Origin: Crambe crambe
Lineage: Eukaryota > Porifera > Demospongiae > Poecilosclerida > Crambeidae
Reading direction: 5' to 3'
Assembly (NCBI GenBank): GCA_963924555.1
Contig: OZ004594.1
Span: forward strand, 2,821,563 to 2,885,562
Length of the DNA: 64,000 bases
Shown here: in pieces, positions 15,815 to 55,900 of the stretch
How the letters are laid out: each line of letters begins with the position of its first letter
How positions within the stretch are numbered: position 1 is the first letter of the stretch
The notes under the pieces: generated by a model
Seen by the model: the letters and a program-made list of their open reading frames with translations, nothing else
The model's database searches: none
What the model was told of the DNA's origin: nothing
Program-made: the position numbers and the translations under genes

Positions 15815-24861
<9,047 letters not shown>

Positions 24862-25078: not shown

Positions 25079-28000
25079 ATGGAAACTGGAAGGGATTCTA
25101 GCATGGATACGTCCAATGTAAGCCCTTTGGAACTTGTTTCAATCATTGGCTTTAATGGTAAGGAGAAAGTGAATATGATAGTAGTTAAGAGTTATAGCTT
25201 AGCAAAGTACCTAGCTAATTGCCTAGCTACATTTTTTCCACTTAGGGAATATTCCAGGAGGTCTGGTGTCCCATCCAGATGGAGTCCACATCATATACTC
25301 CCTAGGATGCAAACTGATAATCAAAAATCTCTCCACGAAAGAGCAGAGCTTTTTGACAGGGCACTCCAACAATGTCTCTTGTTTGGCTTGTTCCCCATCT
25401 GGCCAATTCCTAGCCTCAGGCCAGGTCACTCACATGGGATTCAAGGCTGATGTCATTGTGTGGGACTTCTCTGAGAGGTCTCTCTATTGCAGGTTTTCCC
25501 TGCATAAGGTCCACGTTCAAGCAGTGGCCTTTTCCCCTAATGATAAGTATTTGGCAACTCTCGGAGGTCTGGATGACAACAGGTAAGTTTATAGAATCTT
25601 AGGGAAAAGTAGGAGTGGCTAGCTATCTAGCCATTTGGCCATTTGAAATCCAGATCCTTCTACCCCAGGGGGACTTATCTGGTTAGTGTCTATATTGACT
25701 TTCTGTCTTTCTTCTTCCCTCAGTCTCGTAGTTTGGGATCTGGAGACAAAGGAAGCAATATGTGGTAGCCAGGCTGCCATATCTAGTGCTGGAATGGTTC
25801 ATGCTTTGTCCTTTGGCAATTGCTATGATAACCTCATCGTCACTGGAGGAGAGTAAGTAAAACAGCATGGCTGTGATATAGCTATACCAGCATGTTTTAA
25901 ATTTTACTCTGCTGGCCCAGTAAATGATAACTCCCCTCAACACTAGTAGCTTTAAAGGGGAGTGATGGGGTTCCTGATATGTAAGTTGCTATCTAGCATT
26001 TGTACCCACGACCTGGGCATACAATTCTATATTTCTCTCACAGTGGTACCCTGCGTGTTTGGGAATTGCAGAGAGAGGCTCGTAAAATCATTCCAACTGA
26101 CTGCAACCTTGGTCAACTCAGACGAGTAGTCAACTGCATTCAGGTCTCAGATAATGACCAGTACATGTATTGTGGGACAACCACTGGAGATGTCATGGAG
26201 GTAGTTAAGTGAATCTATATGGATCAGTGATAGCTAACTACTTCTTTTTCAGATCAATACCCAGGCTTGCATCATCCGAAATTTCGGCCCCCAAAAGAAG
26301 AAATTTAGCCAGGGAGTATCTGTGGTCCAATGCCTGCCCTCGGGGAACTTTCTCCTTGGAACAGGAGGAGGAGAGATTGTGGAAACATCAGGAGCCCCCA
26401 ACTTTAAAAAGATCCGTTCTGCCAAACTGCCTGGGAAGGTCACATCTTTATCATTGAGGGGAAATGGTAACCAGTTCTTTATTGGTTTGAGCAATGCACA
26501 AATGTACAAGATGGACTTTGACACCTTTGAACCCGACCTCCTTGCATCCTGTCATCACAGTGCCATCACCAGCATTGTCTTCCCAAGGTTAGTTAGCCAA
26601 AAGTGGCTTTATAAGAGCTGAAACTACCTTGAATGTTGTCTGGGTATTTGTTGTTTGTTTGTTGTTTGCTTGCTTATTATTCTCACTGCATTGACTAACT
26701 CTTTAGGGGGTCTGCAGAACTATTTGCCACTAGCAGTCAAAATGATGTGAGGATGTGGCATGCAGCCACAGGCAAAGAGCTGCTGAGGCTCACCGTCCCC
26801 AACCTGACCTGTGATGCAGTGGAGATAACCCCTGATGGAAAAGCCATCATCACAGGTCAGTATAAGATCAGTTTACAGGCACTCATTGCAATGGTATGTG
26901 TATAATGTGGCTATTTCTTTTTATAGCTTGGAATGATGGAAAGATTAGAGCATTTTTCCCTGAAAGTGGCAAACTTATGTACATCATTCATGATGCCCAT
27001 AATAAGGTACGTATGCAACCTTCCTTACATGGAATAAAGATTGCATGATATACTTTGTGCATCCCAGGGAGTGACGGCCTTGGCCTGCACGTCCACTAGC
27101 AGACGGCTGATCAGTGGAGGAGGAGAGGGACAGGTCCGTATCTGGGACATCACCCCCAAAGGACACACCTCCATGAAGGAGGCACTGAAAGAACACAAGG
27201 GAGCTGTCACCTGTATCAGAGTAACAGCTGGTGATGAAGAGGTGTGTGAGATCCAGATATGTAGTGGTTAAAATAATTATATTTGATCAACTCTTTCCTA
27301 ATGGTAAATTGTTTGCTACTTGGTGATGTTTTTCCCTGCCCTAGACCATCACCTCCCAAGATTAGTGAGGACACTGGCCACCAAACTTACAAATTATTTC
27401 CCCCTTGCAGTGTGTCACTTCTAGTACTGATGGAACATGCATCATTTGGGACCTCGTGTAAGTATTGGGAATACTAAATCATCACTTTCTCTAATCTTGT
27501 CCTCTTCGTCTCCTTCTTCTCTGCAGGAGATTCGTTCGGAGTCAAATCATCTTTGCCAACACCATGTTCCGTGCAGTGTGCTATGGGTTGAACGACTGTC
27601 AGATCATCACGGGTGGTACGGACAGGAAGATCGGATACTGGGAGACCTACGATGGCTCACAGATCAGGGAACTGGATGGGAGCAAGTCTGCCTCCATCAA
27701 TGGGATGGATGTCCATAAGGGACACTTTGTCACTGGTGGCGGTGATAAACTCATCAAGGTGTGCATTAGAGTGCATGTTTTTCTATGTAGTTTAATCGAC
27801 TGGCTATGTAATAATGCTGGATGTGATAAGCCATTGAAGTCATAAGAAGTCATCAATTGTATTGGGCAGCTAAGCTCACATACGTACGTATCTACAAGCA
27901 TTTTGATTTAGCTTCATGATCTCTCATTGAATTAAAGTTTTACTACAGCAACTGCTACCATTACTACATGTGACAGTCGAGGGTAGAAATCAAACTTTAT

Positions 28001-28402
28001 TCACGTTTTAGTCAAAGTTTCCTTTTGTCATGACTGATGCTTTACAATACAATTTTCTGCCTTTCGAACTTTTTTTTTCAAAAGTAGAAAGCGTGAATAA
28101 AGTTTGATTTCTACCCTCGACTGTCACACATGCTATATATACAGGTGTGGAGGTATGATGAAGGAGACGTGACTCACATTGGGGTGGGACACAGTGGAGA
28201 GGTCACGGGAGTCAGAATCTCACCTGATGGCCAGCACATTGTCAGCGTGAGTGCTGATGGCGCTATTCTCCGCTGGAAGTACCCCACCCCTCCACCTCAG
28301 TTCCTATCAGTAATTCCTACACCTCCTCCAGTGCCAGGCGAGGCTGAGGTCCAGCAACAGGAATCGGAAGTGGGAGGGGCTATCCCTAAACAGGACGAGT
28401 AG
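25079..28402 (+). CDS. CFAP52: CFAP52 (WDR16), ciliary WD40 protein
   Basis: CFAP52 is a microtubule inner protein/cilia-associated WD40 protein of motile axonemes. Eleven exons: 25079-25157, 25246-25582, 25724-25852, 26044-26200, 26253-26587, 26707-26855, 26927-27006, 27068-27241, 27411-27457, 27527-27758, 28145-28402, giving 658 aa against about 620 in human. Family signatures run in order: IIGFNG, GHSNNVSCLACSPSGQFLAS, FSPNDKYLATLGG, GTLRVWELQREARKI, YCGTTTGDVMEI, AWNDGKIRAF, ISGGGEGQVRIWDI, ALKEHKGAVTCIRV, DGTCIIWDLV, GGTDRKIGYWETYDG, VGHSGEVTGVRISPDGQHI and VSADGAILRWKYP, spanning two WD40 propellers. An upstream in-frame ATG at 25049 would add 10 residues but sits inside the X-box-like element, so I prefer 25079. 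The protein ends with a short Pro/Glu-rich tail. Presence of this gene implies motile flagella, as in sponge choanocytes and larvae. Confidence 0.95.
27970..28128. mobile_element. Fold-back (MITE-like) element in the last CFAP52 intron
   Basis: Perfect 36-base inverted arms at 27970-28005 and 28093-28128 (gtgacagtcgagggtagaaa...) around an 87-base interior with no coding capacity. The right arm ends 16 bases before the exon 11 acceptor. Confidence 0.85.
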
Positions 28403-28603: not shown

Positions 28604-29005
28604 CCTTAGTCACTGGTGTCACCCCCCTCCACGTACCTAGCTGCAGTGTCAGGTGATGTGGACAAGGTCAGGGAATTACTGCAAAGTGGTGAGTACAAAA
28701 ACTGTACTGACTCCAATAGGAAGACTCCACTGCATTATGCCTGTGCTAAAGGTCACTTAGATAGAGTGAAGGTGCTGATATCTGAATTCACTCTAAGGAT
28801 ATTAATGGTTGCATACCACTAATAGATGCTGCTTTGAATGGGTGGGAGCATGTATCACTGTCCTTCAAATAATAAAACATTACTTCATTGGACATGCAAA
28901 GGAGGTAATGTTAGCCTAGTTCAAACTCTGATACAAGACAACAAGACTGATATCAATGCTAGGGATGATAAAAATGACACACCACTCCATTGCATTGTGT
29001 TTTAA
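28604..29005 (+). pseudogene. Decayed 5' fragment of an ankyrin-Roc-death gene
   Basis: Aligns with the first approximately 190 codons of the intact gene at 34841 (SGDVDKVRELLQSGEY, TPLHYACAKGHLD), but carries at least two internal deletions (after the ISEF codons at about 28788, and after gggagcatgt at about 28851) and loses the frame. Similarity stops near 29005. No GTPase or death-domain part follows on this strand. Confidence 0.85.
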
Positions 29006-30000
29006 TAATGAAGCACCATGACCTTCAAGAATCATGATCACACTAGCATAGCTACATATATTGAAACTAAGTGGGTGAAGAATAAAGTGGGCATGGCGAT
29101 CCCACACACAGGCACACCAGGCCACTCAAAATCCTGTGGATACACCCCTGGATAGAGGACACATTTATGAGAGATAGCTAATATTTACATTACATAGCTA
29201 CACAAAATCTCTACACTAATTAACTCTGCAGGCATGGGATAGAATTATATTATTGGATAATAAAAGTGGGCCAGTGAAAACCGGACTGGTGGATACACCC
29301 CTGCAATCTACATCTAGAATGTATTAGCTATTTCTAATCTGGTGTTTATATCCTCCATTTAGACTATATCTTTATAATTCAGTGTGACCTCTAGTGTGTG
29401 ACTTTCCAATAATGGGTATACCTTCTAATCCAAAGTGTAACTTTTCTATTTAGTTTGTCCTCTATAATTCAGCGTACCAATCCCTTGATGGTTTCTAGTG
29501 TAAAGGTATGTAGCTAAGTTCTTTATGACCTCTATATAATTTAGGATTTTCCAACCTTAAAGTGTGTACCTTATTCCTAATCTAGTATTGATCGAGTGTC
29601 TACTTAATATCCATCAAGCTAGTGCATCAGCCTTAGCTAATTCTTTTTTTAGATGTTTTTGGCTGGCTACTTTATATTCTAATTAGGCTGCACTTAGAGA
29701 CAGCATTGGTGAGTGCATCAATAATCATTGTACATGTAGCTAGCTATAAGAGGTCATCACTACTAATCCTTTTCCTCCAGGTCGTCATGGAATCAGTCAT
29801 GTGATCAAGATTCATGAGTATGTAGTAGCTTCTGATGCTCTTTATAGTCATTACAACTTCAAAGAAGACAATTATGAGAGGATTAGTTATGAATTTCAGT
29901 CAGTGATAGCCTTGTACACAGGCCATGGCTAAGTCAGTTGAGATAGCTATAAGTAAGATGTTATCATAACCAGTGATGTATTGACCTTTACCTCCAAGTC
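29006..30000. other. Intergenic, no gene; flank resembling 51.7-52.2 kb
   Basis: No coding exon. The stretch 29780-29940 (gtgatcaagattcat, cttctgatgctc, cattacaactt, aagacaatt) resembles sequence at about 51730-52140 upstream of the second ankyrin gene, so it is probably old flank of a third duplicated copy. The rest is unremarkable AT-rich sequence. Confidence 0.5.
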
Positions 30001-30525
30001 AGACATGTGATCAAGATTAGTTACAACCTTCCTCTCCAGATCACAACTAACTATGCTATTGAAGACGCTAATGCAATTTTCTACTGCATCTCTCTCACTT
30101 TTGGTGATGACTACCATTCCCTTATTGATGTCAACCATCTCCATCATGCACTCCACCCCCTCCTCCATCAGCCAGTGCACACCAGTCTTCCACATGGTGC
30201 AGCGACGTTGCAAGTGTATGGAATGTTCATCAGCTGCTTTACCTGGAACAGTGATGGTGAAACTGTATATTATTCTGAGGAGAAGGACATGAAGGAAGCG
30301 TGGGGGGAAGTAGTCATAAGGATCAGTGCACTGTGCAAGCCACCCAATACTGTAGTTGTCAGAAGGTTTGGTCCATGACACTTCACTCTTATCTGCACTA
30401 CAGAGAGCAGGAAAGAACAAGAAAGACTGGGGACCAGATGAAGTGTCCTGTGGTGTGGAAATGAATAAACCTATATCTTTGTGTTCGATTTCTTGGCAAT
30501 ACTGAAGATATTGAGTTCGGAAAAA
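30001..30525 (-). pseudogene. Inverted fragment of ankyrin-Roc-death gene (post-Roc region)
   Basis: On the minus strand this encodes QYCQEIEHKDIGLF, SFLFFPALCSADKSEVSW, YFPPRFLHVLLLRI, RRCTMWKTGVHWLMEE and ENCISVFNSIVSC, matching residues after the Roc domain in both intact paralogues. It is opposite in orientation to the nearby 5' remnant and to the intact genes. The frame is open for 222 codons (29947-30615), but neither the GTPase nor the death domains flank it. Most likely a gene fragment; an exon of a chimeric gene cannot be excluded. Confidence 0.8.
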
Positions 30526-32012
30526 AGTGAAGAGATTAGTATCTGAATCGGAGCTATGGATTTGCTGAATTACAATTTCATTGCATAAATTATTGCTCTG
30601 TACGATAGTGCGCATGAATGCAGTTCATATAGCAACGTGAATTTCTAGCGCTAAGTTGAAACTGGCTACAGCTGCAGCCATTATTGATACATGTAATATG
30701 TGTGGGTGTTGAAAATTCCGGGGATCACGTGAATTCTGAATCTGGCGGAACGACTGTGCCATGCGTTATTAGAGGTGTCACATCATAGATACTATAGTCT
30801 ATAGTATCTATGGTCACATCCATAGCTAATCCAGGGAATCGTATAATCAGGGAATCTGCATCTCTTATTTTAAGTAAGTTGTACTTGTAGGGTATACTGC
30901 ACCTTGTTTATGTGCCTCAGAGTTAAATGAACACCTCTTCATTTTGTATTCTCACTGATTTGCAAGTGTTGCTATTTTCTATTGCTGCTAGCTACTTGTA
31001 AAATAGCAGAATAGCATGCTATTTTAGAATATGCAATTCTGCTATTAGTATAAAAATACCAGAATAGCATCTACTATTTTAAATGCTATTTTGAATATTT
31101 GCTATTATGGGTCATGTGATGTTTTGGAATACACGGAAGTTATTTTAGAATACATGGAAGTTACACTGAAATGTCCGGCTGTCCTGGTCTACAAATGAAT
31201 AGGCAATACCTGCAGCAGAAGTATGCTTCTTCAGTATGTTGCAGCTAGTTACTAACCAGTACAAAATCCACAAGAACTAGAGTGATTTATTCACTGCTTC
31301 TGTACAGAGCTGCTACATCAAGGCGAGGTTAGTTGGATCGCGCATGACCTATGACATCAAATGAAAATGCTCTATAGCAGAATAGCATGCTATTTTAATT
31401 CTTTTAAGGTGCTATTTTTTGCAAATAGCATGCTATTCTTGCTGGCTATCATTATAGCAGCTGGTATCAGAGAGTACTATGTAGTGTTAGTACGGAATGG
31501 GCGTGGCTTCTCTCATTAGAACAATACAAACTAGACTCCGTATCTCTTCTATTCTTGCTATAAGCTCAACTAAACTTCTTACATCTGAAAAACAATGCAG
31601 AAGATGATGATATGACCACTCAAACTCCTCCAGAACAGCGTCAATGATCGGCACCAGCCGCCGCCTAAATCTAATGATTTTTATGATTCGTTCATCATCA
31701 TCATCAGATTCAATAAATATTCTTTGACAGCTGTAACTCCATGATCCTTTCACATACGACAATGAAATTCATATCAACTTGTGTAGTTATAACCACACAA
31801 TGTGCTTTTGCCCGTTATATCCACAGTTTCCCTTCAAAATAATCACTCATATCAAACAATTTTTCATTATAACTATGTCAGCCATTTTTAAATGACATCA
31901 TTTGTCATGCGTGCACGTCTGTCACTATCACATGCACGTACGCGCGTGCCAACCAGCTATTTTACTTGAAAACAATATTCAACTTAGGTCATACAAAAAG
32001 TAAACTAACAAG
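30526..32012. other. Intergenic, repeat-rich, no gene supported
   Basis: Contains a perfect 13-base-arm hairpin at 30784-30812 (catagatactata) and, at about 30980-31440, many copies of AATAGCATGCTATTTT-like words. An open frame of 91 codons on the minus strand (31487-31762) has no recognisable similarity and only a TTG start, so I do not call it. Confidence 0.5.
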
Positions 32013-33418: not shown

Positions 33419-34840
33419 ACTTATAATATAAACCTAGCACTAGTGCCTACAATCCCCCTAGCATCTACATTGATAAAGTTGACTATGCGGGTTATGCATA
33501 CATAGGTCGCTACTATCATAATACCTAGCTACATATCCCACGCCTGGGACATTTTTGAGTGTAGACCTATAGATATAATATTACACTGTATCAACAGTTT
33601 ATGAGTCATGACCTGAGAGTCAATGTTTCTGCTCTTACATGCACTCAAGAGCTTCATTCTTCCCATCGCTACTATCATAAAAGAGCCAAAATTATATGCC
33701 ATCTTCTCTTTCTCAGCCATTGCTCAGCAAACACTGACAGTTTAGTGAGGCCCGAGGTGAGGCCAGCGGAACGCCATTTTTCCCCCCTAATTACGTAATT
33801 AGACGTCATATGCTACGTAATATCAGCAACCTTTACCCAATGCACACATGCTCTACCTTGTTGCTCTTCTCTAGGCTTTAGTTGGAACTTCGTAGCAAGA
33901 AACTAGCTTCTCACTGACTTTAGTTCGAAATCCCACCCCTTGCACGGCATAGTATCCACCGATATCATTTTTCTATTTGGTATGCAGTTCCCCTGGGGGA
34001 AAAAAGCAAAAAAAAAAAACAACAACAAAAAACAAAAAAACAATGGGGGATGACTGGTAAACTGGTCTAAAAAGGGCTGATAGGATGAGATTATGCATGC
34101 AGGATGACGTTGGATCTGGGTGGTGACACTCTCAAATTCACAAATTCACAATATTTAGCTATTAGCCTTAATTATTACCTAGCTATATAACTAGCTACAA
34201 AGAATGGTAGTAAACAGTAATGAGATTGATTATCAGTGGATTTCTGGTTAAATTCCGAGTTGCTGTGTAGCTCATTTCTACGTATCTGCAGTCATTGATT
34301 CTTGTGGGATTCTTGTAGATTCTGTTACTGTACTGCTATTAGCTAGCATGTTTGAATTCTCAAGTTATTAACTAACTTCAGTAATGAGATTTATTATCAG
34401 TGGATTTCTTATTGAATTAGGAGTTGCTATGTAGCTAGGTAGTATTGCATTTCTATAATCTGCAGTCATTTTCTGTTAGTTATATTTCTTGTTGAATTCG
34501 GACCTAAGTAAGAATGGCTGTCAATTGGTATGGACTCAAAATAGACATGAAAATTCCAAGTATATCAGAGCTATCTGAAAAGATGTAACTGTGAAAACCT
34601 AATAAGAGGTTATCTTTCCATTGCATTCAAAAAAAAAAATCTTTTGGTTACTTTAAACTACCATTATAACTAAAGCCAATTATCCATAATAAGAAAAGCA
34701 CATTATCTAATTGAGAGACAAATAGCAAAGATAGCAGGAATAAAATGCGAATAGCTCTAGCTCTAGCTACAAAATTTATGAGATGATCTAATACCCTAAC
34801 CTCTTCAGATATCATTGCAACAAGCTACTTGACTAGAGCT
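33419..34840. other. Upstream region of the giant ankyrin gene
   Basis: No gene seen. A roughly 160-base segment is tandemly repeated (about 34220-34300 and 34386-34500; gagatt(g/t)attatcagtggatttct). A possible acceptor (cctcttcag, 34800-34808) lies 32 bases before the ankyrin gene's ATG, so a 5' UTR exon may exist further upstream. A poly-A run is at about 34007-34050. Confidence 0.45.
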
Positions 34841-37800
34841 ATGGCCACTGGTGTCACTCCCCTCCACTTAGCTGCAGAGTCAGGTGATGTGGACAAGGTC
34901 AGGGAATTACTGCAAAGTGGTGAGTACAATGTAAACTGTACTGATTCAAGTGGGGAGACTCCACTGCATTATGCCTGTGCTAAAGGTCACTTAAATATGG
35001 TGAAGGTGCTGATATCGGAATTCAATGCTGATGTACTCTTTAAAGATATTAATGGTTGCATACCACTAATAGATGCTGCTTTGAATGGGTGGGAGCATGT
35101 GGTGCTTACTCTATTGAATAAGTATCATTGTCCTTCAAATATCCGAAGTAAAGACAATAAAACATTACTTCATTGGGCATGCAAAGGAGGTAATATTAGC
35201 CTAGTTCAAACTCTGATACAAGATCACAAGGCTGATATCAATGCTAGGGATGATCAAGATAACACACCACTCCATGTGGTAGCATTGTGTGGGAATAAAG
35301 AGGTTGCATTGTTTTTAATTAATGAGGTGGGCTGTGACATTAATGTCAAAGGCAGTTTACATCGGTCTTTGTTACATTCAGCATGCAATGGAGGTAATGT
35401 TAGCCTAGTTAAAACTTTGATACAAGACCACAAGGCTGATATCAATGCTAGGGATGATGAAAATGACACACCACTCCATGTGGCAGCATTGGGTGGGGAA
35501 AAAGAGGTTGCATTGTTTTTGATTAATGAGGTGGGTTGTGATATTAATGTAAAAGGTAATGTAGGTCAGTCTTTGTTACATTCGGCATGCAATGGAGGTA
35601 ATGTTAGCCTAGTTCAAACTCTGATACGACACCATAAAGCTGATATCAATGCTAGAGATGATGAAAATAACACACCACTCCATGTGACAGCATTGGGTGG
35701 GAAAAAAGAGGTTGCATTATTCTTTATTAATGAGGTGGGTTGTGACATTAATGTCAAAGGCAGTTTAGGTCGGTCTTTGTTACATAAAGCATGCAATGGA
35801 GGTAATGTTAGCCTAGTTCAAACTCTGATACAAGACCACAAGGCTGATATCAGTGCTAGGGATGATGAAAGTGACACACCACTCCATGTAGCAGCATTGG
35901 GTGGGAAGAAAGAGGTTGCATTGTTTTTAATTAATGAGATGGGTTGTGACATTAATGTTAAATGCAGTTTAGGTTGGTCTTTGTTACATTCAGCATGCAA
36001 TGGAGGTAATGCTAGCCTAGTTCAAACTCTGATACGTGACCACAAGGCTGATATCAATGCTAGGGATGATCAAAATAACACACCACTCCATGTGGCCGCT
36101 TTTTGTGGGAAAAAAGAGGTTGCATTGTATTTAATTAATGAGGTGGGTTGTGACATTAATATCAAAGGTCTATTAGGTCGGTCTTTGTTACATTCAGCAT
36201 GCAGCGGAGGTAATGTTAACCTAGTTCAAACTCTGATACGAGACCACAAGGCTGATATCAATGCTAGGGATGATCAAAATAACACACCACTCCATGTGGC
36301 AGCATTGGGTGAGAAAAAAGAGGTTGCACTCTTTCTAATTAATGAGGTGGGTTGTGATATTAATGTCAAAGATGATTCAGGTTGGTCTTTGTTACATAAT
36401 GCATGTTATGAAGGTAATGTTAGCCTAGTTCGAACTCTGATAGAAGACCATAAGGCACATATCAATGTAAGGGATAATGAAAATAATACACCACTCCATG
36501 TGGCAGCATTGGGTGGGGAAAAAGAGGTTACATTGTTTTTAATTAATGAAATGGGCTGTGACATTAATGTAAAAGGTAACTTAGGTCGGACTTTGTTACA
36601 TTCAGCATGCAATGGAGGTAATATTAGCCTAGTTCAAACTCTGATACAAGATTACAAGGCTGATATCAATGCTAGGGATGATGATAATAGCACACCACTC
36701 CATGTGGCAGCATTGAGTGGGAAAAAAGAGGTTGCACTGTTTCTAATTAATGAGGTGGGTTGTGACATTAATGTCAAAGATGTTTCAGGTTGGTCTTTGT
36801 TACATAATGCATGTTATGAAGGTAATGTTAGCCTAGTTCGAACTCTGATAGAAGACCATAAGGCACATATCAATGTAAGGGATAATGAAAATAATACACC
36901 ACTCCATGTGGCAGCATTGGGTGGGGAAAAAGAGGTTACATTGTTTTTAATTAATGAAATGGGCTGTGACATTAATGTCAAAGGTAACTTAGGTCGGACT
37001 TTGTTACATTCAGCATGCAATGGAGGTAATATTAGCCTGGTTCGAACTCTGATAGAAGACTACAAGGTTGATATCAATGCTAGGGGTGATGATAATGACA
37101 CACCACTTCATGTAGCAGCATTGTATGAGAAAAAAGATGTTACATTGTTTTTACTTAATGAGGTGGGCTGTGACATTAATGTCAAGGGTTATTTAGGTCG
37201 ATCTTTGTTATATTCAGCATGTAATGGAGGTAATGTTAGTCTAATTCAAACTCTGATAAGAGACTACAAGGCTGATATCAATGCTAGGGATGATCAAAAT
37301 GACACACCACTTCATGTAGCAGCATTGTATGGAAAAAAAGATGTTATATCGTTTTTACTTCATGAGGTGGGTTGTGATATTAATATCAAAGGTCATTTAG
37401 GTCAGTCTTTGTTACATTATGCATGCAAAGGAGGTAATGTTGACCTAGTTAATTCTCTGATACGAGACCACAAGGCTGATATCAATGCTATGGATGATCA
37501 AAATAACATACCACTCCATGTGGCCGCATTCTGTGGGGGAAAAAAGGTTGCATTATTTTTAATTAATGAGGTGGGTTGTGACATTAATATCAAAGGTCAT
37601 TCAGGTCGGTCTTTGTTACATTTAGCATGCAATGGAGGTAATGTTAGCCTAGTTCAAACTCTGATACGAGACCACAAGGCTGATATCAATGCTATGGACT
37701 ATGATAATAACACACCACTTCATGTAGCAGCTTTGTATGGGAAAAAAGAGGTTGCATTATTTTTAATTAATGAAGTGGGTTGCAACATTAATATCAAAGG

Positions 37801-40800
37801 TCATTTAGGTCGGTCTTTGTTACATTCAGCATGCAGCGGAGGTAATGTTAGCCTAGTTCAAACTCTGATACGAGACCACAAGGCTGATATCAATGCTAGG
37901 GATGACCGAAATGACACACCACTCCATGTGTCAGCATTGTATGGGAAAAAGGATGTTACATTGTTTTTAATTAATGAGGTGGGTTGTGACATTAATATCA
38001 AAGGTCATTTAGGTCGGTCTTTGTTACATTCAGCATGCTGTGGAGGTAATATTAGCCTAGTTCGAACTCTGATAGAAGACCACAAGGCTGATATCAGTGC
38101 AAAGAATGATGAATATAACACGCCACTCCATGTGGCAGCATTGTGTGGGGAAAAAAAGGTTGCATTATATTTAATTAATGAGGTGGGTTGTGACATTAAT
38201 ATCAAAGATCATTATGGTCAGGCTTTGTTACATTCAGCATGTAAAGAAGGTAATGTTAGCCTAGTTCAAACTCTGATACGAGATTACAAGGCTGATATCA
38301 ATGTAAAGAATGATGAAAATAACACACCACTCCATGAGGCAGCACTGTGTGGGAATAAAGATGTTGCATTGTTTTTAATAAATGAGGTGGGTTGTGACAT
38401 AAATATCAAAGGTCATCTAGGTTGGCCTTTGTTACATTCAGCATGCAGCGGAGGTAATGTTAGCCTAGTTCAAACTCTGATACGAGACCACAAGGCTGAT
38501 ATCAATGCTAGGGATGACCGAAATGACACACCACTCCATGTGGCAGCATTGAGTGAGAAAAAAGAGGTTGCATTGTTTTTAATTAATGAGGTGTGTTGTG
38601 ATATTAATGTCAAAGGTCATCTAGGTCGGGCTTTGTTACATTCAGCATGCAGCGGAGGTAATGTTAGCCTAGTTGAAACTCTTATACGAGACCACAAGGC
38701 TGATATCAATGCTAGGGATGATCAAAATAGCACACCGCTCCATGTGTCAGCATTGTGCGGGAAAAGAGAGGTTGTATTATTTCTAATTAATAAAGTTGGT
38801 TGTAATATTAATATCAAAGGTCATTTCGGTCAGTCTATGTTACATTCAGCATGTAAAGAAGGTAATGTCAACCTAGTTCAAACTCTGATACGAGATTACA
38901 AGGCTGATATCAATGCAAAGAATGATGAAAATAACACACCACTCCATGTGGCAGCATTGTGTGGGGAAAAAGACGTTGCATTGTTTTTAATAAATGAGGT
39001 GGGTTGTGACATTAATATCAAAGGCAGTTTGGGTCAGTCTTTGTTACATAGTGCATGTAAAGGAGGTAATCTTAGCCTAGTTCAAACTCTGATACGAGAC
39101 CACAAGGCTGATATCAATGCAAAGAATGATGAATATAACACGCCACTCCATGTGGCAGCATTAGGTGGGGGGAAAGAGGTTACATTGTTTTTAATTAATG
39201 AGGTGGGTTGTGACATTAATATCAAAAGTCATCTAGGTCGGTCTTTACTACATTCAGCATGCAATGGAGGTAATGTTAGCCTAGTTCGAACTCTGATAGA
39301 AGACCACAAGGCTGATATCAATGCTAAGGGTTATGATAATAACACACCACTTCATGTAGCAGCTTTGTATGGGAAAAAAGATGTTACATTATTTTTACTT
39401 AATGAGGTGGGTTGTGACATTAATGTAAAAGGTTATTTAGGTCGATCTTTGTTGCATTCAGCATGCAATGGAGGTAATGTTAGCCTAGTTCGAACTCTGA
39501 TAGAAGACTACAAGGCTGATATCAATGCTAAGGGTTATGATAATGACACACCACTCCATGTAGCAGCTTTGTATGGGAAAGAAGATGTTATATTGTTTTT
39601 ACTTAATGAGGTGGGTTGTGACATTAATGTCAAAGGTCATTTAGGTCAGTCTTTTTTACATTCAGCATGTAAAGGAGGTAATATTAGCCTAGTTCAAACT
39701 CTGATACAAGACAACAAGGCTGATATCAATGTTAGGGATGATGAAAATAACACACCACTCCATGTATCAGCATTGTATGGGAAAAAAGATGTCACATTGT
39801 TTTTAATTAATGAGGTGGGTTGTGAAATTAATATCAAAGGTCATCTAGGTCGATCTTTGTTACATTCAGCATGCAGCGGAGGTAATGAAAGCCTAGTTCA
39901 AATTCTGATACGAGACCACAAGGCTGATATCAATGCTAGGGATGATCGAAATAACACACCACTCCATGTGTCAGCATTATGCGGGAAAAGAGAGGTCGTA
40001 TTATTTCTAATTAATAAAGTGGGTTGTGACATTAATATCACAGGTCATTTCAGTCAGTCTTTGTTACATTCAGCATGTAAAGGAGGTAATGTTAGCCTAA
40101 TTCGAACTCTGATACGAGACCACAAGGCGGATATCAATGCAAAGAATGATGAATATAACACGCCACTCCATGTAGCAGCATTGTGTGGGGAAAAAAAGGT
40201 TGCATTATATTTAATCAAAGAGATGGGTTGTGACATTAATATCAAAGATCATTATGGTCAGGCTTTGTTACATTTAGCATGTAAAGAAGGTAATATTAGC
40301 CTAGTTCGAACTCTAATACGAGATTACAAGGCTGATATCAATGTAAAGAATGATGAAAATAACACACCACTCCATGAGGCAGCACTGTGTGGGAATAAAG
40401 ATGTTGCATTGTTTTTAATAAATGAGGTTGATTGTGACATAAATATCAAAGGCGGTTTGGGTCGGTCTTTGTTACATAGTGCATGTAATGGAGGTAATCT
40501 TAGCCTAGTTCAAACTCTGATACGAAAGCACAAGGCTAATATCGATGCTAGGAATGATGAAAATAACACACCACTTCACGTTGCAGCATTGTGTGGGAAA
40601 AAAGAGGTTGCATTGTTTTTAATTAATAAGGTGGGTTGTGACATTAATGTTAAAGGCCATTTAGGTCAGTCTTTATTACATTCAGCATGCATTGGAGGTA
40701 ATGTTGGCCTAGTTCAAACTCTGATACAAGATTACAAGGCTGATATCAATGCAAAGAATGATGAAAAAAACACGCCACTCCATGAGGCAGCATTGTGCGG

Positions 40801-43800
40801 GAAAGAAGATGTTGCATTGTTTTTAATAAATAAGGTGGGTTGTGACATAAATATTAAAGGCAGTTTTGGTCGGTCTTTATTACATAGTGCATGTAATGGA
40901 GGTAATCTTAGCCTAGTTCAAACTCTGATACGAGACCACAAGGCTGATATCAATGCAAAGAACGATGAATATAACACGCCACTCCATGTGGCAGCATTGT
41001 GTGGGGAAAAAAAGATTGCATTGTATTTAATTAATGAGGTGGGTTGTGACATTAATGTCAAAGGTTATTTAGGTCGATCTTTGTTGCATTCAGCATGCAA
41101 TGGAGGTAATGTTAGCCTAGTTCGAACTCTGATAGAAGACTACAAGGCTGATATCAATGCTAGGGATGATGACTATAACACACCACTCCATATGGCAGCA
41201 TTGTGTGGGAAAAAAGAGGTTGCATCTTTTTTAATTAATGATGTGGGTAGTGACATTAATGTGAAAGGTTTCTTAGGTCAGTCTTTGCTACATTCAGCAT
41301 GCAATGGAGGTAATGTTGGCCTTGTTCAAATTCTGATACGAGACCACAAGGCTGATATCAATGTTAAGGATGATGAAAATAGCACACCACTCCATGTGGC
41401 AGCATTGGGTGGGAAAAAAGAGGTTGTATTATTTTTAATTAATGAGGTGGGTTATGACATTAATGTCAAAGGTAGTTTAGGTCAGTCATTGTTACATAAT
41501 GCATGTAAAGGAGGTGATATTAGCCTAGTTCGAACTTTGATTCAAGACCACAAGGCTGATATCAATGCTAGGGATGATGAAAATGACACACCACTCCATG
41601 TGGCAGCATTGTTTGGAAAAAAAGAGATTGCATTGTTTTTAATTAATGAGATGGGTTGTGACATTAATGTCAAAGGTGATTCAGGTTGGTCTTTGTTACA
41701 TAATGCATGCTATGGAGGTAATGTTAGCTTAGTTCAAACTCTGATACAAGACCACAAGGCTGATATCAATGCTAGGGATAACGAAAATAACATACCACTC
41801 CATGTGGCAGCATGTTTTGGGAAAAAAGAGGTTGCACTATTTCTAATTAATGAGGTGGGTTGTGACATTAATGTCAAAGATGATTCAGGTTGGTCTTTGT
41901 TACATAATGCATGCTATGGAGGTGATATTAGCCTTGTTCGAATTCTGATTCAAGACCATAAGACAGATGTCGATGCAAGGGATAATGAAAATGACACACC
42001 ACTCCATGTAGCTGCATTTGGTGGGAAAAAAGAGGTCGCACTATTTTTGATTAATGAGGAGGGTTGTGACATTGATGTCAAGGGATGTTTAGGTCGAACT
42101 TTGTTACATTCAGCATGCAATGGAGGTAATGTTAGCCTAGTTCAAACTTTGATACAAGACCACAAGGCTGATATCAATGCTAGGGATGATCAAAATAATG
42201 CACCACTCCATGTGGCAGCATTGTGTGGAAAAAAAGAAGTTGCTTTATTTTTAATAAATGAGGTCGGCTTTGACATCAATATCAAAGGTGATTCAAGTCG
42301 CTCTTTGTTACATAATGCATGTAAAGGAGGTAATGTTAGCTTAGTTGAAACTTTAATACGAGATCACAAGGCTGATATTGATGCTAGGGATATTAATAAA
42401 AACACACCACTCCATGTGGCAGCATTGTGTGGGAAAAAAGAGGTTGCATTGTTTTTAATTAATGAGGTGGGTTGTGACATTACTGTCAGAGGTTATTTAG
42501 GTCGATCTTTGATACATTCAGCATGCAGTGGAGGTAATGTTAGCCTAGTTCAAACTCTGATACGAGACCACAAGGCTGATATCAATGCTAGGGATGATAA
42601 AAATAACATACCACTCCATGTGGCAGCATTGTGTGGGAAAAAAGAGGTTGCATTGTTTTTAATTAATAAGGTGGGTTGTGACATTACTGTCAGAGGTTAT
42701 TTAGGTCGATCTTTGATACATTCAGCATGCAGTGGAGGTAATGTTAGCCTAGTTCAAACTCTGATACATGATCACAAGGCTGATATCAATGCTAGGGATG
42801 ATGAACATAACACACCACTCCATGTGGCAGTATTGGGTCAGAAAAAAAAGGTTGTATTTTTTTTGATCAATAGAGTTTGTTGTGACATTAATATCAGAGG
42901 TCATTTGGGTTATACTTTGCTGCATAAAGCATGTTCTGATGGCAATGTTGATCTACTTCATACTTTGATACAAGACTATAAGGCTGATATCAATGTTAGA
43001 AATGAATACAACAAGACCCCTCTTCATGTGGCTACTCGCTTTAAAAAATTAGAAATCATGTCCATTCTAATTAATGATTATGGCTGCTATTTCGATGAAA
43101 GAGATCACAATGGCTACTCATTACTACACACAGTATGCAGCTATGGTTTCTATTCTCTGATAGCAAAGCTTTGTGACCATATATCACCTTTAGTAGTAGA
43201 CAATGATGGTAACACTCCCCTTCATATTAGTTCTTCTCTTGGCCATATCAAATGTATTGAGGTATTACTGCAAAAAAAAGCTCCAATTCTGATAAGAAAT
43301 AATTCAGGAAAGACTCCAAAGGACTTAGCAAAAGGTGATGCTATGTTGCTGATTAATGAGTACATGAAACAGAATCGAGATAAAACACTGGTTGACTATC
43401 ATGGCATGCAAGAGCGTGCAAAGAAGAAGTACTCAGGTGCACAACGTATAACCAGGTTATTTATCATTGGTAATCCTGGTGCAGGGAAGAGCTCCTTTGT
43501 TGAATCACTTAAAAGAGAGGGTTATTTTGAATCATTTTGGAGGGTATCTGAATCCACCGTACCCCCTCACACTGCTGGTATAGTCCCTAGTATTTATACC
43601 AGTAAACACTATGGGAGAGTCCAGTTCTATGACTTTGCTGGAGACCCTGAGTACTACTCCTCACATGCTGCTATACTGGAGAATCTTGCCTCGTCAAGTA
43701 AAGGTGACAACATATTCATTATTGTGATTGATTTGAGAGAAGATAACTTAGCTATTGAGAATGTGTTACACTATTGGTCTGCATTCATACAACACCAGAT

Positions 43801-45725
43801 ATTCAAGAACAAGCCTTCCCTTATTGTAATAGGGAGCCATTCAGATCTAGTTAGCAAAGAAACTCTAACACAAAAAAGTAAATTATTCAAAAAGCTCTTC
43901 AAAAAATACTCAGTGGCCACTAGACTAGGTCAAAATACCACATACTTTCAGTTGGATTGTTGTCAACCAGGATCCAAAGAGATTAGTGAGGTCCAGGAGC
44001 AACTTATTAGTCTAACATGTAAGTCCCAGTCCTATCAATTGTCTTTTGAAGCAAGCATTCTCTTAGGGTTATTGGAGAAAGATTTCAGCAATGTCACTGC
44101 TTGTCCTGTCAGTACATTAGTATCCCACATAGAGGACACTGGGGTGCATCTTCCCAATAAAGCTGAATTATTACACCCCATACTGCATGACCTCCATGAG
44201 GTTGGTATTTTATTACTGATGGGAGACAGAACTAAGCATGATTACCACATAGCATTAAAGACATCTAAACTTACTAATAAAGTTCATAAAACCTTTTTTT
44301 CTAAGCCTGCTATTAAAAATATTAAACAAATGAGTGAACTTAGATATATTTCATCTCTTAACATTGGAATTATCCCTGAAGACCTTCTGCAAGAGATCCT
44401 TCCTACACATATCACAAAAGAATGCCTTGTTCATCTTCAGTATTGCCAAGAAATTGAACACAAAGATATAGGTCTGTTTCTTTCCACACCACAGGACATT
44501 TCATCTAGGCCCCAGTCTTTCTTGTTCTTTCCTGCTCTCTGTAGTGCAGATAAGAGTGCAGTGTCATGGACCACATCTCCTGACAGCTACAGTATTGGGT
44601 GGCTTGCACAGTGCACTGATCCTCATGACTACTTCCCCCCACGCTTCCTTCATGTCCTTCTCCTCAGAATAGTCTTCAGTTTCACCCTCACTGCTCCAGG
44701 TAAAACAGTTGATGAGCATTCTAAGCACTTTCAGCGTCGCTGCACCATGTGGAAGACTGGTGTGCACTGGTTGATGGAGGAGGGGGTGGAGTGTATGGTG
44801 GAGATGGTGAACATCAATAAGGGTCCTGGAGTGGTGGTCATCACCAGAAGTGAACAAGATGCAGTAGAAAATTGCATTAGTGTCTTCAATAGCATAGTTA
44901 GTTGTGTGATGGAGACCATGAAAGAGTTTTGCCACTCCATCACACCTGAATTCTTTCTGCTTGACTCCACAAAAGAAGACGACTACTTCAATGAGGACAA
45001 CTTCTTTGTCATGAATGAAGTGGAGGAGGTCCTGATATCTTCCAAGGGAGTGGAAGCAGTCATCAGTAAAACAGGGAAAAGGAAAATGATGCGTTCTAAG
45101 TTGCTATGCATGCGCACACTCACTCATTGGAACAGTATTTTTCCTATAGACTTCATCTCTGTTTTTGGTTACCTTAGAGACATAGTTGCAGATTTGTTTG
45201 TCCTTGGTCTCCATCTCAAAATCCCCCAAAGTGTCCTTGAGGCCATAAAGAGGGACCATCTCCTTGATACAAGTGGACAGAGGACTGAACTGGTGAGGAA
45301 GTGGATGAGCTCCTCTCTGGACCCTCCATGCTGGTGGCATCTTGTGGAGGCACTGAGGAAGATCAACTGGGGAGCACTAGCTAATGAGATTGAAGAGAAA
45401 TACAGTAAGTCGCTATGACAACATATCCAAGTACTAGTTATGAATTCATTTTGCAGGTGACCACATACAACTCCAGAAAAAGCTGCTTGACCCAAAGCTT
45501 CAAACCATTACACCTGATATTGAGTTTCTGGAGTTACTTGCTGGAGTGGTAGGATCCAAGTGGTCATCCCTGGCCTGCATTCTCTGTGAGGAGATAGAAG
45601 AAGTGAAGACAGAAGAGGAAGACCAAGCCCTCCTGATGCTGAAGAAGTGGTCCTCCAAGGAAGGGGCCACATATGGTCAGCTCTGCAACAGACTCAAAAC
45701 AATCTCACTCTTTCAGTATGTATAA
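34841..45725 (+). CDS. Giant ankyrin-Roc-COR-like-death-death protein
   Basis: Two exons, 34841-45404 and 45457-45725, total 10,833 bases (3,610 aa). ATG 34841 starts MATGVTPLHLAAESGD. Residues 1 to about 2,835 are ankyrin repeats, roughly 80. Most form a 68-residue (204-base) two-repeat unit: GRSLLHSACNGGNVSLVQTL... then NTPLHVAALCGKKEVALFLI.... A Roc-type GTPase follows: P-loop GNPGAGKSS (residue 2877), switch motif DFAGD (about 2931) and base-recognition GSHSD (about 2998). Next comes a COR-like/winged-helix region (about 3050-3220) and a conserved block with RRCTMWKTGVHWL. The first death-fold domain is at about 3430-3521 (LRDIVADLFVLGLHL, RKWMSSS, CWWHLVEAL). Exon 2 encodes a second one (FLELLAGVVGSKWSSLA, LMLKKWSSKEGATYGQL). 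The order resembles DAPK1 without its kinase. Likely a cytosolic sensor that signals through death-fold contacts; ligand and pathway unknown. No signal peptide or transmembrane helix. Confidence 0.85.
35150..43000 (+). repeat. 204 bp coding tandem array (ankyrin doublets)
   Basis: About 38 consecutive units of 204 bases, each coding two ankyrin repeats (35 + 33 residues). Neighbouring units are often nearly identical at the DNA level, for example 36360-36620 against 36768-37028, two units away. The array has no frameshift or stop. Variation concentrates at a few positions such as the loop after INVK and the residue after GR/GQ/GW. Confidence 0.9.
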
Positions 45726-47584: not shown

Positions 47585-50395
47585 CACATATCCGGCTGCA
47601 GTTAATAGCTACTTGAACTCTTTATCCAGCCAAGTTAATACTTAAACTCTTTATCCAGCCACAGTTAATACTTGAAATCTTTATCCGGCTACAGTTAATA
47701 CTTGAAGTCTTTATCCAGCTTCAGTTAATACTTGAACTCTTTATCCGGCTGCAGTTAATACTTGAACTCTTTATCCAGCCACAGTTAATATTTGAACTGG
47801 CCACAGTTACTCTTTATCCGGCCACAGTTAATACTTGAACTTTTTATCCGGCTACAGTTAATACTTGAACTCTTTATCCGGCTACAGTTAATACTTGAAC
47901 TCTTTATCCGGCTGCAGTTAATACTTGAACTCTTTATCCGGCTACAGTTAATACTTGAACTCTTTATCTGGCTACAGTTATTCTTTTATCCGGCCACAGT
48001 TAATATTTGAACTCTTTATCTGGCCACGGTTAATATTTGAACTCTTTATCTGACTACAGTTAATACTTCCAACTCTTTATCTGGCCACAGTTAATATTCA
48101 AACTCTTTATCGGGCTACAGTTAATACTTGAAATTTTTATCCAGCTGCAGTTAATATTTTGAAATCTTTATCTGGCTACAGTTAATACTTCCAACTCTTT
48201 ATCTGGCCACAGTTAATATTCGAACTCTTTATCGGGCTACAGTTAATACTTGAAATTTTTATCCAGCTGCAGTTAATATTTTGAAATCTTTATCTGGCTA
48301 CAGTTAATACTTCCAACTCTTTATCTGGCCACAGTTAATATTCGAACTCTTTATCGGGCTACAGTTAATACTTGAAATTTTTATCCAGCTGCAGTTAATA
48401 TTTTGAAATCTTTATCTGGCTACAGTTAATACTTCCAACTCTTTATCTGGCCACAGTTAATATTCGAACTGCTACTTGAAATCTTTATCTGGCTACAGTT
48501 AATATTTGAATTCTTTTATCCGGCCACAGTTAATATTTGAACTCTTTATCCGGCTACAGTTAATATTTGAATTCTTTTATCCAGCCACAGTTAATATTTG
48601 AACTCTTTATCTGGCCACAGTTAATATTTGAACTCTTTATCCGACTACAGTTAATACTTCAACTCTTTATCTGGCCACAGTTAATTTTCGAACTCTTTAT
48701 CCGGCTACAGTTAATATTTTCCGGCTGCAGTTAATACTTAAACTCTTTATCCGGCTACAATTAATATTTTAAACTCTTTATCTGGCTGCAGTTAATATTT
48801 GAAACTCTTTATCCGGCTACAGTTAATATTTTGAAATCTTTATCCAGCTGCAGTTAATATTTTGAAATCTTTATCTGGCTGCAGTTAATATTTGAAACTC
48901 TTTATCCGGCTACAGTTAATATTTTGAAATCTTTATCCAGCTGCAGTTAATATTTTGAAATCTTTATCTGGCTGCAGTTAATATTTGAAACTCTTTATCC
49001 GGCTACAGTTAATATTTTGAAATCTTTATCCAGCTGCAGTTAATATTTTGAAATCTTTATCTGGCTACAGTTAATATTTGAAACTCTTTATCCAGCTACA
49101 GTTAATATTTTGAAATCTTTATCCGGCTGCAGTTAATACTTAAACTCTTTATCCGGCTACAGTTAATAATATTTGAACTCTTTATCTGGCCACAGTTAAT
49201 ATTTGAACTCTTTATCCGACTACAGTTAATACTTCAACTCTTTATCTGGCCACAGTTAATTTTCGAACTCTTTATCCGGCTACAGTTAATATTTTCCGGC
49301 TGCAGTTAATACTTAAACTCTTTATCCGGCTACAATTAATATTTTAAACTCTTTATCTGGCTGCAGTTAATATTTGAAACTCTTTATCCGGCTACAGTTA
49401 ATATTTTGAAATCTTTATCCAGCTGCAGTTAATATTTTGAAATCTTTATCTGGCTGCAGTTAATATTTGAAACTCTTTATCCGGCTACAGTTAATATTTT
49501 GAAATCTTTATCCAGCTGCAGTTAATATTTTGAAATCTTTATCTGGCTGCAGTTAATATTTGAAACTCTTTATCCGGCTACAGTTAATATTTTGAAATCT
49601 TTATCCAGCTGCAGTTAATATTTTGAAATCTTTATCTGGCTACAGTTAATATTTGAAACTCTTTATCCAGCTACAGTTAATATTTTGAAATCTTTATCCG
49701 GCTGCAGTTAATACTTAAACTCTTTATCCGGCTACAGTTAATAATATTTGAAGTCTTTATCTGGCCACAGTTAATATTTGAACTCTTTATCCGACTACAG
49801 TTAATACTTCAACTCTTTATCTGGCCACAGTTAATTTTCGAACTCTTTATCCGGCTACAGTTAATATTTTCCGGCTGCAGTTAATACTTAAACTCTTTAT
49901 CCGGCTACAATTAATATTTTAAACTCTTTATCTGGCTGCAGTTAATATTTGAAACTCTTTATCCGGCTACAGTTAATATTTTGAAATCTTTATCCAGCTG
50001 CAGTTAATATTTTGAAATCTTTATCTGGCTGCAGTTAATATTTTGAAATCTTTATCTGGCTGCAGTTAATATTTGAAACTCTTTATCCGGCTACAGTTAA
50101 TATTTTGAAATCTTTATCCAGCTGCAGTTAATATTTTGAAATCTTTATCTGGCTACAGTTAATATTTGAAACTCTTTATCCAGCTACAGTTAATATTTTG
50201 AAATCTTTATCCGGCTGCAGTTAATACTTAAACTCTTTATCCAGCTACAGTTAATAATATTTGAACTCTTTATCTGGCTGCAGTTATTACTTTGAAGTCT
50301 TTATCCGGAATTGAACTCTTTATCCAGCTACAGTTAATTGAATTCTTATCTGGCTGCAGTTAATAATAGAACTCTTTTATCCAGCTACAGTTTCT
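47585..50395. repeat. Minisatellite array, about 30-31 bp monomer
   Basis: About 90 tandem monomers of the form ctttatccggctacagttaa + tacttgaact. Higher-order periods exist: 122 bases (four monomers) at about 48067, 48189, 48311 and 48433, and 575 bases with the marker ccggctgcag at 48721, 49296 and 49871. No open frame of interest. A smaller array of the same monomer is at 59525-60520. Confidence 0.95.
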
Positions 50396-52915: not shown

Positions 52916-55900
52916 ATGGCTTCAACTTCCTCAGTCACTGGTGTCACTTCCCTCCACCTAGCTGCAGAGTCAGGTGATGTGGACAAGGTCAGGGAATTAC
53001 TGCAAAGTGGTGAGTACAATGTAAACTGTACTGACTCCAATGGGAGGACTCCACTGCATTATGCCTGTGCTAAAGGTCACTTAGATATGGTGAAGGTACT
53101 GATATCTGACTTCAATGCTGATGTACTCTTTAAGGATGTTAATAGTTGCATACCACTAATAGATGCTGCTTTGAATGGGTGGGAGCATGTGGTGCTTACT
53201 CTATTGAATAAGTATCACTGTCCTTCAAATATCAAAAGTAAAGACAATAAAACATTACTTCATTGGGCATGCAAAGGAGGTAATGTTAGCCTAGTTCAAA
53301 CTCTGATACAAGACCACAAGGTTGATATCAATGCTAGGGATGATGAAAATGACACACCACTCAGTGTGGCAGCATTGGGTGGGAAAAAAGAGGTTGCATT
53401 GTTTTTAATTAACGAAGTGGGTTGTGATATTAATATCAAAGATTATAAAGGTTGTTCTTTGTTACATTCAGCATGTATTGGAGGTAATGTTAGCCTAGTT
53501 CAAACTCTGATACGAGACCACAAGGCTGATATCAATGTTAGGGATGAAAATAAGCATACACCATTCCATGTGGCAGCAGGATGTGGGGAAAAAGAGGTTA
53601 CATTTTTTTAAATAAATGAGGTGGGTTGTGATATTGATATCCAATGTGATCGAGGTCGATCTTTGTTACATCATGCATGCATTGGAGGTAATGTTAGCCT
53701 AGTTCAAACTCTGATACGAGACCACAAGGCTGATACAAATACTAGGGATGATGAAAATTATACACCACTCCATGTGGCAGCATTGTGTGGGAAAAAAGAG
53801 GTTGCACTTTTTTTAATTAATGAGGTGGGTTGTGACATTAATGTCAAAGGTTATAAAGGTTGGTCTTTGTTACATTCAGCATGCAAGGGAGGTAATGTTA
53901 GCCTAGTTCAAACTCTGATACGAGACCACAAGGTTGATATCAATGCTAGGGATGATAAAAATGACACACCATTCCATGTGGCAGCGTTGTGTGGAAAAAA
54001 AGAGGTTGCACTGTTTTTAATTAATGAGGTGGGTTGTGACATTAATGTCAAAGGTTATAAAGGTCGGTCTTTGTTACATTCAGCATGCAAGGGAGGTAAT
54101 GTTAGCCTAGTTCAAACTCTGATACGAGACCACAAGGTTGATATCAATGCTAGGGATGATAAAAATGACACACCATTCCATGTGGCAGCGTTGTGTGGAA
54201 AAAAAGAGGTTGTACTGTTTTTAATTAATGAGGTGGGTTGTGACATTAATGTCAAAGGTTATAAAGGTCGGTCTTTGTTACATTCAGCATGCAAGGGAGG
54301 TAATGTTAGCCTAGTTCAAACTCTGATACGAGACCACAAGGTTGATATCAATGCTAGGGATGATAAAAATGACATACCATTCCATGTGGCAGCGTTGTGT
54401 GGAAAAAAAGAGGTTGCACTATTTTTAATTAATGAGGTGGGTTGTGACATAAATATCAAAGGTTATAAAGGTCGGTCATTGTTACATATGGCATGCAATG
54501 GAGGTAATGTTAGCCTAGTTCAATATCTGATACGAGACCATAAAACAGATATCAATGCTAGGGATGATGAAAATGACACACCACTCCATGTGGCAGTATT
54601 GTGTGGGAAAAAAGAGGTTGCACTGTTTTTAATTAATGAGGTGGGTTGTGACATAAATATCAAAGGTTATAAAGGTCGGTCATTGTTACATATGGCATGC
54701 AATGGAGGTAATGTTAGCCTAGTTCAATATCTGATACGAGACCATAAAACAGATATCAATGCTAGGGATGATGAAAATGACACACCACTCCATGTGGCAG
54801 TATTGTGTGGGAAAAAAGAGGTTGCACTGTTTTTAATTAATGAGGTGGGTTGTGACACAAATGTCAAAGGTGGTTTGGGTTGGTCTTTGTTGCATAAAGC
54901 ATGCAATGGAGATAACATTAGCCTAGTTCATACTCTGATACAAGACCACAAGGCTGATATCAATGCTAGGGATGATCAAAATAATACACCACTCCATGTG
55001 GCAGCACTGTGTGGAAAAAAAGAGGTTGCATTGTTTTTAATTAATGAAATGGGCTGTGACATAAATGTCGAAGGTAGTTCAGGTCGGTCTTTATTACATA
55101 ATGCATGCATTGGAGGTAACGTTAGCCTAGTTCAAACTCTGATACGAGACCACAAGGCTGATATCAATGCTAGGGATGATGAAAACAGCACACCACTCCA
55201 TGTTGCAGCATTGTGTGGAAAAAAAGAGGTTGCACTATTTTTAATTAATGAGGTGGGTTGTGACACGAATGTCAAAGGTAGTTTGGGTCGGTCATTGTTA
55301 CATATGGCATGCAATGGAGGTAATGTTTGCCTAGTTCAAACTCTGATACGAGACCACAAGGCTGATATCAATGCTGGAGATGATGAAAATGACACACCAC
55401 TTCATGTGGCAGCATTGGCAGGTGAAGAAGAGGTCATACTTTTATTGATTGATAGATTCACATCCCCCTTAGTATTAGACAATGATGGTAACACTCCCCT
55501 TCATATTTGTTCCTCACGTGGCCATACCAAATGTGTTGAGGTATTACTGCAAAAAAATGCTCCAATTGTGATAAGAAATAATTCAGGAAGTACTCCAAAG
55601 GACTTAGCAAAAGGTGATGCTAAATTACTAATTAATGAGTACATGAAACAGAATCGAGATAAAACACTGGTAGACTATCATGGCATGCAAGAGTGTGCAA
55701 AGAAGAAGTATTCAGGTGCACAACATGTAACCAGATTATTTATCATTGGTAATCCTGGTGCAGGGAAGAGCTCCCTTGTTGAATCACTTAAAAGGGAGGG
55801 TTATTTCGAATCTTTTTGGAGGGTATCTGAATCCACTGTACCCCCTCACACTGCTGGTATAGTCCCTAGTATTTATACCAGTAAACACTATGGGAGAGTC

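Follow-up and report, generated by a model that had tools for sequence, protein, structure and literature searches.

A giant kinase-less ankyrin-Roc-COR protein with two death domains and its expanded gene family in the sponge Crambe crambe, a candidate repertoire of intracellular sensors

The window, i.e. the whole stretch of DNA that was analysed, comprises 64,000 nucleotides of the Crambe crambe genome (C17:2821563-2885562) and contains a giant gene, a second member of the same family and two relics:

34841-45404, plus strand: exon 1 of the window gene (ATG, ankyrin array, Roc, COR and death domain 1), 10,564 bases, stop-free
34844-43291, plus strand: ankyrin array, about 83 repeats of 34 amino acids, mostly 68-amino-acid (204-bp) A/B pairs (Pfam on the first 400 residues, own-repeat profile, tandem-repeat periodicity)
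43436-44026, plus strand: Roc GTPase with P-loop from 43469, DFAGD and GSHSD (Pfam, profile, fold)
44027-45127, plus strand: COR (COR-A and COR-B), recognised by predicted structure only
45173-45400, plus strand: death domain 1 (DD1), with the FADD death domain as nearest profile match (E 6.5e-9)
45405-45456, plus strand: GT-AG intron of 52 bases (sequence; in-frame junction as in the family)
45457-45725, plus strand: exon 2 with death domain 2 (DD2) and stop codon (Pfam Death; found in 23 of 24 aligned rows; fold)
52916-57683, plus strand: exon 1 of the second family member, start methionine by analogy, in-frame TAA at 53609-53611 (sequence)
57739-58016, plus strand: DD2 exon of the second member (L013; splice-junction survey)
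28610-28819, plus strand: relic, ankyrin start of another member (sequence, domain scan)
29950-30624, minus strand: relic, COR fragment of another member without Pfam match (by eye against the window protein)

The two family members are separated by a large minisatellite with a unit of about 30-31 bases (47610-50392). WD40 exons lie at 27038-28396, and the ordinary neighbours, a methylpurine-DNA glycosylase and a CLEC16A-like gene, at 62053-62670, 15818-17614 (minus strand) and 21826-22287 (minus strand).

An open frame of 3,543 codons without a stop extends from 34787 to 45418 in the ORF listing. Reading from the ATG at 34841 over the intron at 45405-45456 to the TAA at 45723-45725 yields a product of 3,610 residues, the length given in the initial annotation, which had also described one uninterrupted exon of about 10.6 kb (by sequence, 10,564 bases without a stop) and about 80 ankyrin repeats. 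A profile made from the gene's own repeats produced 83 matches to two alternating 34-residue types, and the DNA showed a period of 204 bases with 38.3 copies and 85% match. The proposed order of ankyrin repeats, Roc, COR and two death domains was borne out by Pfam, profile comparison and predicted fold. Roc exceeded the Pfam cut-off (27.2 bits against 27), Ank and, for DD2, Death were matched, and DD1 was recognised via the FADD profile. Comparison of the window Roc with the LRRK2 Roc profile gave an E-value of about 7e-9. Among the aligned members, Pfam Roc was matched in 31 of 31 and Pfam Death in 20 of 31 (E <= 0.1 for both), the window protein not being among the Death matches listed. The DD2 profile found the death domains of ankyrin-3 (1.1e-5) and RIPK1 (2e-5). 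Structure prediction recovered the folds of Roc, COR and DD2; COR-A and COR-B were placed directly after Roc by the predicted structure, but no Pfam COR match was obtained for the window protein, and the sequence identity to the Roc-COR core of LRRK2 and bacterial Roco proteins was 14-17%. The predicted product of the window locus is a giant, cytosolic, kinase-less ROCO protein, for which sequence, predicted structure and relatives together show a long ankyrin solenoid with a period of two repeats, a Roc-COR GTPase core and two C-terminal death domains.

The absence of a kinase, as initially annotated, was upheld both for the exon and for the upstream region (27.0-34.8 kb), where 10 of the 14 listed frames of 70 or more codons were scanned by Pfam. 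The ATG directly precedes the first ankyrin repeat, as it does in the 4,061-residue member. The description as DAPK1-like holds for the C-terminal half, with ankyrins before Roc-COR and death domains after it, and for the ROCO kinship indicated by a Roc GTPase domain directly followed by COR, but the group-defining kinase before the ankyrins was not found. The layout also differs from that of the LRRK group, which has a kinase after COR and LRRs before Roc, since death domains come after COR in the window protein. No LRR match was obtained by Pfam in the first 400 residues, the last 721 residues of exon 1 or exon 2, and the remaining repeats are readable as ankyrins. For NACHT or NB-ARC, no Pfam match at E <= 1 was detected in the window protein, which carries Roc instead; P-loop-type matches in aligned members were AAA_16 (30 of 31, best E 1.5e-5) and nSTAND3 (8 of 31, best 0.0097), and the second window copy matched nSTAND1 with an E-value of 0.28. 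TRADD-N was absent from the families listed in the Pfam scan of the window protein and from the 25 of 42 families shown for the aligned members. Because the kinase that defines the DAPK1 group was not found, we refer to a ROCO-death family that lacks a kinase, with a layout like that of DAPK1 and a presumed use like that of NLRs.

A census of the Crambe crambe genome (143.1 Mb, 119 contigs) revealed that the window gene is no singleton. Searches with three members (best 66 of 298, 60 of 191 and 60 of 697 candidates scored, so that all counts are lower bounds) identified at least 66 family loci, 21 on C17, 20 on C15, 18 on C18, 4 on C14, 2 on C1 and 1 on C6, and an independent genome scan with Pfam Death matched both death domains at family loci (best 150 of 965 candidates). 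Three clusters accommodate 55 of these loci: 18 on C17 at 2.86-3.21 Mb, 18 on C18 at 5.25-5.59 Mb and 19 on C15 at 1.39-1.69 Mb. Open frames of 849-4,065 residues are present at 63 of the 66 loci, two of them with a stop within the match, and the remaining three have short frames. At least one member is larger than the window gene, since the frame of 4,065 residues has the same kind of N-terminus and a distance from start to P-loop worth about 100 repeats; in three members this distance corresponded to about 53, 85 and 100 repeats. A tree built from 31 rows joined all eight C15 rows in one clade and all six C18 rows in another, each with support of 100/100, while the C17 rows formed no single clade and needed three changes; the program flagged long branches, L051 being placed with the C15 group. 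Five N-termini were inspected: they are whole in the window gene, C17:3062k and C1:1812k, the near-identical copy C1:1650k is cut off at the 5' end, and the second window copy has a downstream stop.

These genes are constrained in their C-terminal domains. G77, G80, G82, K83 (P-loop), T111, D131, G134, H200 and D202 are invariant across the alignment of 31 rows (from 66 loci), which makes nucleotide binding by Roc look intact on sequence grounds. The dN/dS values of 0.25-0.44 for Roc, COR and DD1 (10 C17, 6 C18 and 7 C15 members) indicate purifying selection on these domains. An in-frame GT-AG junction into the DD2 exon was found at each of the 30 most similar loci (L009-L038, with L009 being the window gene), with preceding introns of 51-623 bases; the DD2 exon ends early at two of them, L030 and L034.

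The ankyrin array behaves differently at its core and at its surface. All 38 array units of the window gene are different peptides with a mean amino-acid identity of 0.73, and some pairs are very similar in DNA sequence (units 6 and 8, 99.0%; units 15 and 25, 97.1%). Between the two copies in the window, unit likeness (0.828) equals that within the first gene (0.833), which indicates homogenisation by lineage and not by gene; units on C18 were more similar among themselves (0.813) than to window units (0.725). Amino-acid changes in the window gene are concentrated at the positions scored as concave/hairpin, which we take to be the randomised positions of designed ankyrins (pN 0.275 vs 0.116, permutation p 0.00015), and three other genes showed an excess in the same direction (p 0.002-0.012). 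The pN/pS ratio was 0.27 in the repeat core, 0.78 (0.63-0.99) at the 12 concave/hairpin positions, chosen in advance, and 1.01 (0.76-1.40) at 12 helix-exposed positions, indicating a conserved solenoid whose surface can vary freely. Compared with the exposed set, pN at concave positions was weakly higher (permutation p 0.039, 0.033, 0.163 and 0.063 in four genes). From the ratios at concave or helix-exposed positions, positive selection on the repeat surface was not demonstrable, and relaxed constraint accounts for the diversity equally well. Repeat-surface diversity is thus free variation rather than demonstrated selection for new ligands.

One relative was detected among 20 pattern matches when prokaryote genomes were scanned with the family alignment. 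It is a contig of 3,960 bases (JACERO010000092.1, L068), binned under the title Nitrosopumilus sp. isolate HM_N. A single frame holds the A/B ankyrin pairs, Roc, COR and DD1, and a possible GT-AG intron of 53 bases, at the same place as in the Crambe gene, separates it from DD2. Over 731 aligned columns its product shares 48% identity with the window protein; in Pfam searches, Ank and the second Death were over the cut-off, Roc and DD1 under it. The three whole units of this contig are 0.82-0.88 identical to one another and at most 0.71 identical to any of 67 Crambe units, as homogenisation of arrays within lineages would predict. An archaeon is not expected to carry such a gene, and the contig is read as probable host DNA of a related sponge, contaminating this public archaeal genome. 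A Nitrosopumilus-type symbiont is described from Hymedesmia (Stylopus) methanophila in the available part of PMC7848895, and Hymedesmia is a poecilosclerid genus like Crambe. The isolate name gave no hit in a search of that text, and we infer that HM stands for this sponge.

The reading that we favour, with a probability of roughly 55%, is that the family constitutes a repertoire of ROCO sensors without a kinase that operate in the manner of NLRs, and its members may act as intracellular danger sensors. The ankyrin array would serve to recognise ligands that derive from microbes, viruses or damage, or else guarded host proteins, and ligand binding would free the Roc-COR switch to load GTP. COR-mediated pairing of two chains could then gather their death domains, four in all, which in clustered form would recruit death-domain adaptors (FADD-like or RIPK-like) and trigger cell death or NF-kB-type signalling. 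Roc-COR would thereby replace the NACHT domain and ankyrins the LRRs of an NLR, and the repertoire would arise from tandem gene duplication and repeat turnover inside the array. DED domains were found in 29 stretches of the genome, 21 of them over the cut-off, so that a FADD/caspase-8-type set of partners, and with it a FADD-caspase type of output, is possible for the family. Against the favoured reading, the same genome holds a conventional NACHT repertoire of at least 103 stretches with frames of up to 2,905 residues, and no substitute for NLRs is needed. NACHT stretches were noticed at C21:1.29-1.64, C10:6.78-7.03, C9:7.06-7.53 and C1:1.4-3.2 Mb, and L065 (C18:5181000-5185499), beside the C18 ankyrin-Roc cluster, appeared by eye to encode a NACHT domain with a long array of LRRs after it.

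Scaffold proteins are usually few and conserved. A house-keeping function, in which the array tethers a DAPK-like ROCO core to the cytoskeleton or membranes and the expansion serves dosage or tissue use, would agree with the strongly conserved repeat core, with surface variation compatible with drift and with the DD2 profile matching ankyrin-3 besides RIPK1. However, a total of at least 66 loci, of which three clusters hold 55, together with lineage-specific clades and relics are unlike scaffolds, and we regard this explanation as unlikely. Less probable still are receptors for self/non-self discrimination (allorecognition), akin to the incompatibility NLRs of fungi, whose repeats are conserved internally: high internal repeat similarity, turnover and gene clusters match the fungal pattern as far as it is set out in the available part of PMC4986451, but the fungal repeats are under positive selection according to that text, which was not demonstrated for the Crambe repeats, the mean identity of the 38 units (0.73) is below the 85% taken there as highly conserved, and the single assembly examined lends no support to polymorphism between individuals. 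A tandem expansion that is for the most part decaying, with long frames outlasting duplication for a time and only a few copies in use, would account for the two relics, the stop in the second window copy, the 5'-truncated C1 copy and the early ends of DD2 in L030 and L034, but is highly improbable in view of the long frames retained at 63 of 66 loci, the low dN/dS, the invariant GTPase motif residues and the in-frame splice junction at all 30 loci inspected.

Extending the sensor reading, we tentatively suggest that poecilosclerid sponges might run a second large intracellular-receptor repertoire beside NLRs, combining a ROCO switch, giant, internally homogenised ankyrin arrays with specificity via turnover, and tandem death domains. 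Such a family would perhaps exceed every other known ROCO family in size and mark a second way in which animals came to possess NLR-like systems of immunity or allorecognition. If true, it would hint that more than a single kind of nucleotide switch gave rise to NLR-like repertoires in animals, and the family would offer a natural experiment on the coupling of an array to death-domain output by Roc-COR. ROCO proteins are known mainly from the single human genes LRRK2 and DAPK1, and in the open-licence literature searched we found no published account of such an ankyrin-Roc-COR-death-death family. Other Roc-bearing genes exist in the genome besides this subfamily. Another expanded ROCO-like group is represented by L058 (C8:945000-947400) and L060 (C12:1886000-1889600), with Pfam COR-A matches under the cut-off, and by similar places on C8, C10, C11 and C12; similar Roc matches occur in frames of roughly 600-1,300 residues. 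L059 (C6:6219500-6224000) is an ankyrin-Roc gene of a different branch, with at least 1,381 residues in the fetched stretch and another C-terminus.

LRRK2, the Parkinson's protein with a comparable GTP-switch core, and bacterial Roco proteins differ from the Crambe protein, in which no LRR or kinase was found and whose low identity and lacking Pfam COR match set it apart. In DAPK1, only a handful of ankyrin repeats are placed before Roc-COR. The DAPK1 group, metazoa-only and marked by a death domain and a kinase before Roc-COR according to the accessible part of PMC6337361, shares with the Crambe family the order of ankyrin, Roc, COR and death domain, but the latter has two death domains, about 83 repeats, one giant exon and at least 66 loci, and no kinase was found. 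Placozoa have at least 17 ROCO genes, fewer than Crambe, some with CARD or death domains; LRR and TPR repeats, but no giant ankyrin arrays, are mentioned in the portion of PMC4104024 available. The sea-anemone proteins NG1 and NG3 similarly couple Roc/COR to immune-type domains, namely TIR and, in NG3, also a death domain, but they contain LRRs or a kinase, and an ankyrin array is not described in the available text (PMC5094078). Brown algae have an expanded ROCO family with repeat turnover, proposed to be immune receptors, and their 9-47 genes per species, more than reported for other organisms in the part of PMC11378527 consulted, would be exceeded by the at least 66 loci (63 with long frames) in Crambe. 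The algal genes are LRR-ROC-COR, mostly dispersed and with LRRs on separate exons, in contrast to the one-exon ankyrins, clusters and two death domains of the sponge genes (PMC11378527, same part). In Amphimedon, a sponge expansion of 357 death/TRADD-N proteins, often with ankyrins, likewise combines death-superfamily domains and ankyrins, but TRADD-N follows an N-terminal death unit in the excerpt of PMC8195603, whereas the Crambe family has Roc-COR and C-terminal death domains, with TRADD-N not among the matches listed. Sponge NLRs (PMC12909245) and fungal ANK-NLRs (PMC4986451), each as partially available, resemble the Crambe family in nucleotide switch, repeats, death-fold or effector domain and species-specific expansion; the switch is NACHT or NB-ARC in NLR/STAND proteins and a Roc-COR GTPase in the Crambe family, with NACHT genes also present in the same genome. 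The fungal ankyrin arrays have high internal similarity and, in the available part of PMC4986451, positive selection on the concave face, and by analogy fungal ankyrin NLRs are the nearest precedent for the proposed mode of action.
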